Of a stretch of DNA of 38,073 bases, positions 1,880 to 33,607 are shown one piece after another. Source of the stretch: Clostridiales bacterium (lineage in GTDB: Bacteria; Bacillota; Clostridia; Christensenellales; Aristaeellaceae); contig SVGO01000011.1 of NCBI GenBank assembly GCA_015056305.1, positions 1 to 38,073 of the forward strand, given 5' to 3'. A program made the translations under genes and the position numbers. Positions within the stretch are counted from its first letter, which is position 1. Every line of letters begins with the position of its first letter. The notes beneath the pieces are model-generated. The model saw nothing but the letters and a program-made list of their open reading frames with translations, searched no databases and had not been told where the DNA came from.

Positions 1880-2056
1880 AAAGCCGCCGCGAAGCGGAAA
1901 AGGGAGTTTGAGGGATGAAATCCCTCAAGCAGGTCTTCGGGGACCGAAGCCTGCCGCGCCCAGTGGGCGAAACAGGCAGGCGGAGCGTCGGGAATCGCAA
2001 GGAGCAGCAGAATGCTGCGACTATGCGAGTTCCCCGGATGGCAGCCCTATCGTTCC
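1880..2056 (+). repeat. Long form of the modular palindromic repeat, locus 1 outward arm
   Basis: AAGCCGCCGCGAAGCGGAAAAGGGAGTTTGAGGGATGAAATCCCTCAAGCAGGTCTTCGGGGACCGAAGCCTGCCGCGCCCAGTGGGCG...GCAGCCCTATCGTTCC; near full-length homolog of the reverse complement of 15487-15663. Confidence 0.88.
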
Positions 2057-4548: not shown

Positions 4549-6000
4549 TTAACTTTTTTTCGCGCCGTTTTTCCATTTTCCGGAGAAATAGAACCACAAG
4601 CCGATAAAGAACGGCGTAAAGCCTGCCAGCGCGTCGCCCAGCCAGAATCCGTAGTGCCTCATATCCAGCACAAGGCCGAGCAGCACGGCAAGGCCGATGC
4701 GCATGACGATGCCGTCGAGGATCGCCGTCGCAAAGTTCATGCGGTAATCGCCACTGCCATTGATCAGCGCATTCATGATCGCGCGCATCGCAGCGCCCGC
4801 AAAGAGCAGCACCGCGATGGGCACGTACTTTTCGCCGATCGCCAGCACGGCGGCGTCCTTGGTAAAGACGGAAAAGACCACATCCGGAAAGAAGACGATC
4901 ACCGAGGAGAACGCCGCCGCCACGCTCAGCGTGATCATCGCCAGCCGCACGAGGATCTTCTTCACACGCTCATACTCGAGCGCTGCGATATTCTGGCCGA
5001 CCATCGTGGAACCCGCCGTGTTCATCGCATTGGACACGAGATTGGCCACGCTGGAGAGCTTGTTGGCGATACCCGCGAAGGCCGAAACCGCGATGCCGTA
5101 GGAATTGATCCAGGAATTGACAAAGAGCTTGGAGATCTGGATCGACGCGCTCTTGATCGCCATGGGCAAACCAAGTCGGACGAGGTCCAGAAGCATCGCC
5201 CGATCCCAGTGAATAAAGTCGACCGGGCGCATATCCAGCACAAACTCCCTGCGCCGCACAGCCAGGAAGACGACGCAGCTGACAAAGCTGACGCCCTGGG
5301 AGATCACCGTCGCCAGCGCAGCGCCGCCGGGCCCCATGTCCAGCCCCATCACAAACAAGACGTCCAGCGCGAGATTGAGCACGGCGGCAATGCTGATGAA
5401 GACGAACGGATGCTTTGAGTCGCCCATGCCGCGCAGCACGGCAGAGACGATGTTGTATCCATAGATGAACACAAGGCCTGCCATGCACACGCATGAATAC
5501 GCCAGCGCACCGGCAAACGCCTCCTGCGGCGTATTCATCAGGCGGAGAATCCCCTCGCGGAAGACAAAACTCAGAAGACTCAGCAAAGCGGCGCAGAGCA
5601 TCAGAAAGCCGCTCATCGTGCCGACAAAGCGCCCCAGCTTCTCCCGCTGGCCGGAACCGATGAGCCTGGCGATGAGCACCTGCCCCGCCGCGGAAAAGCC
5701 CATCGCCACAAACGTAAGAAAATGCGATACGTCGCCGCCGACAGACACGGCAGAGATGCCCGCCTTGCCCAGATGATTGCCGACGATGATCATGTCGACC
5801 ATGTTGTAGACCACCTGCAGCAGATTCGACAGGAACAGCGGCCATGCAAACACCAGCAGCTGCTTTGTGATATTGCCCCGGGTAAAATCCCGGATCTGCG
5901 TCTTTTCCACGTCTGTCACACACCTGCTTCGTTTGAGAAAAAGCGTCGGATCACCGGTTCCATTTTCAGGACGGCTCCGCCGCTTCATGTTCATCTTCAT
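4549..6000 (-). CDS. MATE family efflux transporter
   Basis: 483 aa; TRGNITKQLLVFAWPLFLSNLLQVVYNMVDMIIVGNHLG; 12-TM pattern. Start may be internal (VEKTQIRD). Confidence 0.94.
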   Translation of the reverse strand: MKMNMKRRSRPENGTGDPTLFLKRSRCVTDVEKTQIRDFTRGNITKQLLVFAWPLFLSNLLQVVYNMVDMIIVGNHLGKAGISAVSVGGDVSHFLTFVAMGFSAAGQVLIARLIGSGQREKLGRFVGTMSGFLMLCAALLSLLSFVFREGILRLMNTPQEAFAGALAYSCVCMAGLVFIYGYNIVSAVLRGMGDSKHPFVFISIAAVLNLALDVLFVMGLDMGPGGAALATVISQGVSFVSCVVFLAVRRREFVLDMRPVDFIHWDRAMLLDLVRLGLPMAIKSASIQISKLFVNSWINSYGIAVSAFAGIANKLSSVANLVSNAMNTAGSTMVGQNIAALEYERVKKILVRLAMITLSVAAAFSSVIVFFPDVVFSVFTKDAAVLAIGEKYVPIAVLLFAGAAMRAIMNALINGSGDYRMNFATAILDGIVMRIGLAVLLGLVLDMRHYGFWLGDALAGFTPFFIGLWFYFSGKWKNGAKKS

Positions 6001-13381: not shown

Positions 13382-13439
13382 AAAAACAAAAGAAGCTCTG
13401 ATTTCTCAAAGCTTCTTTTTCTGGCGCAGAAGGAGGGAT
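13382..13439. repeat. 58-bp direct repeat, copy 1 (terminator hairpin plus tRNA-Ser 3' end)
   Basis: AAAAACAAAAGAAGCTCTGATTTCTCAAAGCTTCTTTTTCTGGCGCAGAAGGAGGGAT, identical to 13543-13600 (offset 161 bp). Confidence 0.93.
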
Positions 13440-13530
13440 CTTGCCCCTCGCTGCGGCTCGGGCTGGATCGGCTCTGACGTGCCACTGGCACGTCATTCAC
13501 TCCCGATCCGTTCAAATCCCACTTCGTCCT
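13425..13530 (-). pseudogene. Truncated tRNA-Ser 3' end fused to a structured GAGTGAA-module
   Basis: Minus strand AGGACGAAGTGGGATTTGAACGGATCGGGAGTGAATGACGTGCCAGTGGCACGTCAGAGCCGATCCAGCCCGAGCCGCAGCGAGGGGCAAGATCCCTCCTTCTGCGCCA; only the acceptor/T-arm end is tRNA-like. Confidence 0.75.
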
Positions 13531-13542
13531 AAAGAAGCTCTG

Positions 13543-13600
13543 AAAAACAAAAGAAGCTCTGATTTCTCAAAGCTTCTTTTTCTGGCGCAGAAGGAGGGAT
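13543..13600. repeat. 58-bp direct repeat, copy 2 (overlaps the intact tRNA-Ser 3' end and its terminator)
   Basis: Identical to 13382-13439. Confidence 0.93.
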
Positions 13601-13674
13601 TTGAACCCTCGCGCCGCTTCACGCAGCCTACTCCCTTAGCAGGGGAGCCCCTTCGGCCTCTTGGGTACTTCTGC
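13583..13674 (-). tRNA. tRNA-Ser(GCT)
   Basis: Reverse complement GCAGAAGTACCCAAGAGGCCGAAGGGGCTCCCCTGCTAAGGGAGTAGGC...GAGGGTTCAAATCCCTCCTTCTGCGCCA; long variable arm; anticodon GCT. Confidence 0.94.
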
Positions 13675-15486: not shown

Positions 15487-15663
15487 GGGTAACGTTAGGG
15501 CTGCCATCCGGGGAACTCGCATAGTCGCGCAAGCGCTCCTTGCGATTCCCGACGCTCCGCCTGCCTGCTTCCGCCACTGGCGGCGGCAGGCTTCGGTCCC
15601 CTAAAACCTGCCTGAGGGGGCATCGCCCCTCAGACTCCCTTCTCCGCTTCGCGGCGGATTCAA
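15487..15663 (-). repeat. Long form of the modular palindromic repeat, locus 3 outward arm
   Basis: Minus strand AATCCGCCGCGAAGCGGAGAAGGGAGTCTGAGGGGCGATGCCCCCTCAGGCAGGTTTTAGGGGACCGAAGCCTGCCGCCGCCAGTGGCGG...GGATGGCAGCCCTAACGTTACCC. Confidence 0.88.
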
Positions 15664-33302: not shown

Positions 33303-33380
33303 GGGACGTTAGGGCTGCCGCCCTAAGACCCGCCAAGGGACTTCGCCCCTTGACCCCATGCTTGCTTCGCGGCGGTTTTA
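33303..33380 (-). repeat. Short form of the modular palindromic repeat (locus 5 inverse arm)
   Basis: Minus strand ACCGCCGCGAAGCAAGCATGGGGTCAAGGGGCGAAGTCCCTTGGCGGGTCTTAGGGCGGCAGCCCTAACGTCCC. Confidence 0.85.
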
Positions 33381-33393
33381 AAATGTTTATGCA

Positions 33394-33424: not shown

Positions 33425-33444
33425 ACAGTATAGATGTTTAATCC

Positions 33445-33605
33445 CGCTGCAAAGTGAAGAAGGGAGTCTGAGGGTTCGGATTCTCCGAACCGGGACAGGA
33501 GTGAATGACAGCTAAGCAGGGCTGTCAGAGCTGTCCTGAACGACGAGCGTCGAGCGAGGAGATAGAAATCCCTCAGGCAGAGGCTTGGGCGATAGCCCAA
33601 CGTCT
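33445..33605 (+). repeat. Modular palindromic repeat with GAGTGAA-module nested in its first hairpin (locus 5 outward arm)
   Basis: AAGTGAAGAAGGGAGTCTGAGGG-[~95 nt insert]-CCCTCAGGCAGAGGCTTGGGCGATAGCCCAACGTCTCC. Confidence 0.82.
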
Positions 33606-33607
33606 CC

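Follow-up and report, generated by a model that had tools for sequence, protein, structure and literature searches.

In this study, we found that a folded DNA or RNA cassette of ~75-95 letters with a single near-fixed internal loop is present in dozens of copies in a gut bacterium of the Clostridiales (assembly GCA_015056305.1) and its relatives. The stretch analysed, referred to here as the window, comprises 38,073 nucleotides of contig SVGO01000011.1. The module has at least two carriers, an intergenic hairpin repeat and a unit behind tRNA genes, and both are represented in the window. We consider it probable that small non-autonomous mobile elements of Clostridia, hairpin in form, have this module as their conserved core and its loop as a recognition site. 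The family appears to be previously undescribed and is filed here under small interspersed mobile repeats, outside any named family. One near-fixed-loop module is found both in hairpin carriers unrelated to each other and downstream of 21 or more different tRNAs, and each tRNA-linked unit has the end of its own tRNA directly copied on one flank and, in part, inverted on the opposite flank. To our knowledge, no described bacterial repeat tailors itself to a neighbouring tRNA. The new family has a clear consensus to search with, and it raises the questions of which factor reads the loop and in what way a tRNA end is copied in both orientations.

Both copies claimed in the original prediction were recovered in the window by a covariance model (R1) built on 55 different copies, at 33493-33536 on the plus strand (48.2 bits) and at 13508-13466 on the minus strand (67.4 bits). 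The window has exactly two occurrences of the pattern GAGTGAATGAC (expected 0.53 ± 0.74 at up to one mismatch) and the 2.62-Mb source genome has 17, compared with 0 for a reversed control pattern; one of the 17 matches (L008) is unrelated and ribosome-binding-site-like. The module is not confined to these two copies, since the model found 37 in the source genome and between 0 and 37 in each genome of the genus, with copies in 15 of 29 and the richest relatives being G010 (35) and G017 (23). Under stricter filters, 9 of 391 sampled members of the class had matches, the source genome counted. A scan of GTDB species genomes gave at least 117 stretches and, among the matches listed, nearly all were from uncultured Clostridia/Oscillospiraceae of ruminant and other guts. 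In other Clostridia families the copies are scattered and their presence is patchy. Matches in Boseongicola, Holophagales, Opitutales and similar taxa lack the shared context and were taken as chance, and viral spread was rejected, as only L167 is a real module among 29 viral-contig matches to the pattern. Rfam 15 detected only tRNAs in the window, and the best weak match of the module to a known structured RNA family (E=0.095) scored 19 bits, below the cut-off of 40. In the openly readable literature we found no description of such a repeat, the motif string appearing only in unrelated papers.

The core consists, in order, of stem P2 (6-8 bp), a 7-nt loop strand, stem P3 (9 bp, usually with a 3-nt loop) and a 3-nt loop strand; the outer stem P1, which encloses the core and a second hairpin (H2), is carrier sequence and not element-specific. 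The predicted covariation of the stems was confirmed in 116 copies picked by the loop motif alone (a set picked for full pairing gives inflated counts). P2 was paired at 624 of 696 positions, compared with a mean of 485 and a maximum of 505 for shuffled partners, and the inner P3 was Watson-Crick paired at 522 of 535 positions across 27 different sequences. The apparent mismatches in P2 are mostly tandem G-A/A-G pairs, found in about 25 copies in three registers. Among 113 copies, H2 takes the form CGAG...CGAG after the core in 60, and in 52 a different hairpin, of 4 bp or more, stands there.

The asymmetric GAGTGAA/GAG loop proved to be conserved, as had been proposed, but not invariant. Its consensus in copies retrieved without use of the loop sequence is NNRUGAA/GAR, that is NN[A/G]TGAA with GA[G/A], so that positions 1-2 are unconstrained; in all, two or three positions at one edge of the loop can vary. 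Among 87 matches from this loop-blind search, 83 have TGAA and GA[GA]; of the 19 in loci outside the loop-pattern set, 17 have both, one has TAAA and one is unrelated. Copies with CAA.. or AAA.. loops have GAA where others have GAG, and this paired change from GAG..GAG to CAA..GAA indicates that the two loop strands tend to vary together. In other Clostridia families the loops are TAGTGAA, AAGTGAA, TGGTGAA or CAGTGAA, each with GAG, and the TGAC foot of P3 is variable (TCCGG..CCGGA, TCAGG..CCTGA), with no change in GAG or the closing U-A pair. From this conservation it is fair to infer that the loop may be a recognition motif. By inspection, GAGUGAA/GAG does not seem to show the G-A, A-G order that comes after the 3-nt bulge between two helices in a K-turn, the site of L7Ae-type proteins. 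A small peptide read from AGGAGUGA-AUG was also considered and rejected because the length of P3 varies, which shifts the frame.

In the first carrier, the ~95-nt insert at 33.4 kb sits, as originally proposed, where other scaffold copies have a 7-nt ATGAAAT apical loop. Module-less scaffold copies read CGCGAAGCGAAGAAGGGAGTCTGAGGG-ATGAAAT-CCCTCAGGC, with GAGGG-ATGAAAT-CCCTC at the tip, and a second hairpin comes after this one; AAGGGAGTYTGAGGG has about 60 exact copies spread over the source genome. Of about 34 distinct scaffold copies, 4 have the core, together with its companion hairpins, in place of the 7-nt loop. The composite in the window lies on the plus strand and begins with the scaffold 5' half at 33444-33474 (CCGCTGCAAAGTGAAGAAGGGAGTCTGAGGG, ~60 exact copies in the source genome), which includes the P1 5' strand (33466-33474). 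An accessory hairpin, TTCGG-ATTCT-CCGAA (33475-33489; aligned over 16 copies of the source genome), forms the 5' edge of the inserted segment and is found in scaffold-type copies only. The core itself (33491-33538), identified by the R1 match and by stem covariation, comprises P2 CGGGACAG (33491-33498), GAGTGAA (33499-33505), P3 (33506-33527), GAG (33528-33530) and P2' CTGTCCTG (33531-33538). H2 (CGACGAGCGTCGAGCGAGGAGA) is at 33541-33562, and the scaffold 3' half (33570-33607), common to module-less copies, consists of the P1' strand CCCTCAGGC (33570-33578) and the second hairpin GGCTTGGGCGATAGCCCAACGT. Scaffold-type copies have no constant orientation relative to flanking genes, and no clean target-site duplication was found at their sites. 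A second nested module (ACCGAAGCC..GGCGGAGCGTCGGGAATCGCAAGGAGCAG..CTGCGACTATGCG..) occupies the scaffold's other hairpin at 1922-2054 (plus strand) and 15491-15618 (minus strand) of the window; it was also observed in L222 and, in the same genome, behind tRNA-Val in L296.

The link to tRNA-Ser in the original prediction is present and is broader than noted there: 46 units of ~150 bp, with no gene inside, lie behind tRNA genes of 21 isoacceptors and copy the 3' end of their own tRNA. Reading away from the tRNA, each contains a terminator, an inverted and incomplete tRNA 3' end, the module and then the same tRNA end in direct orientation. In 43 of the 46 the module lies 66-83 nt past the tRNA gene on the same strand, and none was found next to an opposite-strand tRNA in the fetched loci. 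Averaged over the 46 units, 11.2 of 12 positions in the direct copy agree with the upstream tRNA, compared with 7.3 for other tRNAs; for the inverted copy the value is 8.0 of 12, compared with 6.8 for other tRNAs and 7.2 for the highest shuffle. The inverted copy spans the T-loop and T-stem and in some units extends through the acceptor stem; it is only partial or short in many units, and P1 pairing reaches 11-12 of 12 bp in Trp, Val, Asn and Leu units. Among the 174 tRNA genes of the fetched loci, a module-enriched set, 38 have their own T-arm inverted downstream, and nearly all such hairpins enclose a module. Tandem arrays with one terminator per unit occur in L056, L132, L134, L140 and L302.

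The unit in the window is on the minus strand behind tRNA-Ser(GCT) (13583-13674; ARAGORN and Rfam), the 3' end of which it copies. An intrinsic-terminator-like hairpin (13548-13582) occupies the gap between tRNA and unit, and a near-identical copy (13387-13421) lies beyond the unit, the two belonging to a direct repeat (D3, 94% over 70 nt). Both resemble the terminator of the G007 locus, where the unit is absent and the loop TTTGAGAAATCA of the second copy is shared. The P1 5' strand is an inverted partial T-loop/T-stem/acceptor 3' strand (GAAGTGGGATTTGAAC, 13510-13526, 2/13 mismatches), and the P1 3' strand is the direct tRNA-Ser end including CCA (ATCCCTCCTTCTGCGCCA, 13422-13439). Between them, the core (13465-13509) consists of P2 GGATCGG, GAGTGAA (13496-13502), P3 (13475-13495), GAG (13472-13474) and P2' CCGATCC (13465-13471), and is followed by H2 CCCGAGCCGCAGCGAGGGG (13444-13462). 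In L052, a module (5025-5067) precedes a complete T-arm and CCA end (GGAGGTTCAAGTCCTCCCTCCGCAACCA) in a locus with no tRNA gene, as an orphan tRNA-end unit. In L326, tandem units behind tRNA-Trp of G008 are interrupted by a stretch of N, and the true array may exceed its assembled length. L247 (G070, another family of the order) has tRNA-Ser(GCT), a terminator, an inverted T-arm, another insert (GAGCGCGTCCGGTGGACGATGAAGCGAG..) and a tRNA-end copy, that is, the same tRNA-end architecture with a different long structured cargo.

Comparison of orthologous sites points to insertion. The tRNA-Trp gene of the window has no unit and that of G003 has one; upstream DNA is ~80% identical, and the two diverge immediately past CCA. 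Furthermore, in L112 and L309 the terminator that directly follows the unit-less tRNA-Trp of the window is found past the unit. These observations place the insertion point at the boundary of CCA and terminator, leaving the tRNA gene whole. Likewise, the composite at 33444-33607 is missing from the orthologous intergenic region of G003 and G009, although both flanking genes match. G003 keeps only an opposite-facing module-less scaffold there, the counterpart of which is found in the window at about 33303-33385 on the minus strand. Presence/absence polymorphism of the kind seen with MITEs is thus found at orthologous sites, between species of one genus rather than between strains. Alternatively, the relatives could have lost copies rather than the source genome having gained them.

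Our preferred reading, a mobile element, is based on these filled and empty sites, on the copy number of 0-37 within one genus and the patchy distribution over families, on the free orientation of scaffold-type copies, and on tRNA-specific copying, tandem arrays, covarying stems and the conserved loop. In this scenario, elements would be gained by insertion, the module into the apical loop of a two-hairpin intergenic repeat in one carrier and the whole unit immediately after the CCA end of a tRNA gene in the other. The near-fixed loop would be read by a trans-acting factor in folded single-stranded DNA or RNA, and this presumed factor would serve as the presumed mobiliser. The tRNA-type units would spread via recombination at the tRNA 3' end, and tandem arrays would expand through direct repeats made by the units themselves. 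Against this reading, no mobilising protein was found in copy-number and neighbour-gene comparisons, scaffold-type copies show no defined target-site duplication, and many units have an incomplete inverted tRNA end. When all neighbouring reading frames were compared with one another, no family occurred at more than 3 of 73 loci, draft genomes being able to conceal a partner gene.

The upkeep of the stems and the conservation of the loop across families exceed what decaying repeats need, so a host function is possible. The module may, albeit with clearly lower probability, be a functional RNA domain, whose transcribed loop would bind a host protein or ligand and stabilise, process or regulate neighbouring transcripts, and which in tRNA-linked units would regulate tRNA maturation or readthrough. 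Compensatory changes around the near-fixed asymmetric loop, the coordinated change of its two strands, the occurrence of the same motif in distant families, the constant placement on the tRNA strand and the terminators retained on both sides are all consistent with this. However, scaffold-type copies follow no fixed orientation to genes, half the genus lacks the module, no Rfam family matches it, and the terminator between tRNA and module leads one to expect little transcription. G-U pairs are also few, at 2 of 535 pairs in P3 (0.4%) and 20 of 696 in P2 (2.9%), compared with 102 of 1572 (6.5%) for the stems of tRNAs at these loci. This scarcity hints at single-stranded DNA over RNA, weakly, since the copies are related.

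Integrative elements at tRNA 3' ends, including CIME-type remnants, leave the tRNA whole, duplicate its 3' end, displace downstream DNA and can accrete in tandem, and they carry an integrase. The tRNA-linked units share this insertion geometry, with insertion exactly after CCA, a duplicated 3' end and the native terminator displaced further downstream of a whole tRNA gene, and they too accrete in tandem. They might therefore be minimal attachment-site elements integrated in trans by tyrosine integrases, the module being a recombinase arm or fold site and the scaffold-type copies a secondary spread, but we regard this as unlikely. It is in keeping with this possibility that, behind the same tRNA-Ser(GCT) in relatives (L230, L232, L233 and L235), the end of a putative integrase gene lies downstream; judging from sequence, the locus looks like an integration hotspot. 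In contrast to integrative elements, the units are only ~150 bp long, carry no integrase gene and have no recurrent neighbour gene, and their many different tRNAs would require many integrases. Neither the partial inverted tRNA end nor the folded module away from tRNAs, as in scaffold-type copies, would be explained.

It also appears quite doubtful that the tRNA-linked units are RNA-borne mobile elements imitating the acceptor/T-stem helix of a tRNA ending in CCA. Through P1 and CCA, the released RNA would then serve tRNA-processing enzymes as a substrate, and a partner protein would use the module as its handle. If this were true, a small mobile element would be tailored anew to each host tRNA.

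The original suggestion of a RAYT, in which hairpins would be mobilised by a Y1 tyrosine transposase as in REP systems, is highly improbable and, like mobilisation by a reverse transcriptase, was rejected because neither enzyme co-occurs with the copies. Short palindromic repeats in intergenic DNA, and GGTAGCGAAGC in some other carriers, would fit such a system. However, the tRNA and scaffold types have no GTAG tag, Y1 transposase (PF01797) was not found in the draft genomes of the copy-rich G010 and G017 and gave only a broken weak match in the source genome, and G020, G024 and G004, which have intact ones, have no copies. Reverse transcriptase (PF00078) was not found in the five copy-richest genomes (G000, G003, G005, G010 and G017), so a group II intron or another reverse-transcriptase element does not follow copy number either.

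Compared by description only, the BOX elements of Streptococcus are nearest in design to the mobile element proposed here, being modular with one core in different carriers. According to the available part of their description, they are intergenic repeats that fold if transcribed, with an optional and repeatable boxB core shared in S. suis by two outer carriers, and they are inserted into one another and have terminal inverted repeats and target duplications (PMC3049150). They differ in host, Streptococcus rather than Clostridia, and that part describes no copying of tRNA 3' ends (PMC3049150). Rickettsia palindromic elements are found inside the structured RNA genes for tmRNA and RNase P RNA, enter protein genes in frame and have terminal inverted repeats; they and other bacterial MITEs share with our units the ~100-150 bp palindromic mobile form (PMC2229807). 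Unlike these, our unit lies behind an intact tRNA with the tRNA end duplicated. GTAG REPs, 20-40 bp long, tagged with GTAG and frequently accompanied by a RAYT, resemble the module as many short intergenic hairpins whose stems vary by paired changes (PMC3733652). In contrast to REPs, no Y1 transposase tracks the copies here, and by inspection the GGTAG string is restricted to carriers other than the scaffold and tRNA types. A further carrier was observed in other genera (L031, L034, L101, L167, L360 and others), where the module lies in repeats of the type GGCTCCCC..AAGGGG-AGCTGTC..GACTGAGGGG and is preceded by (GG)TAGCGAAGCG.
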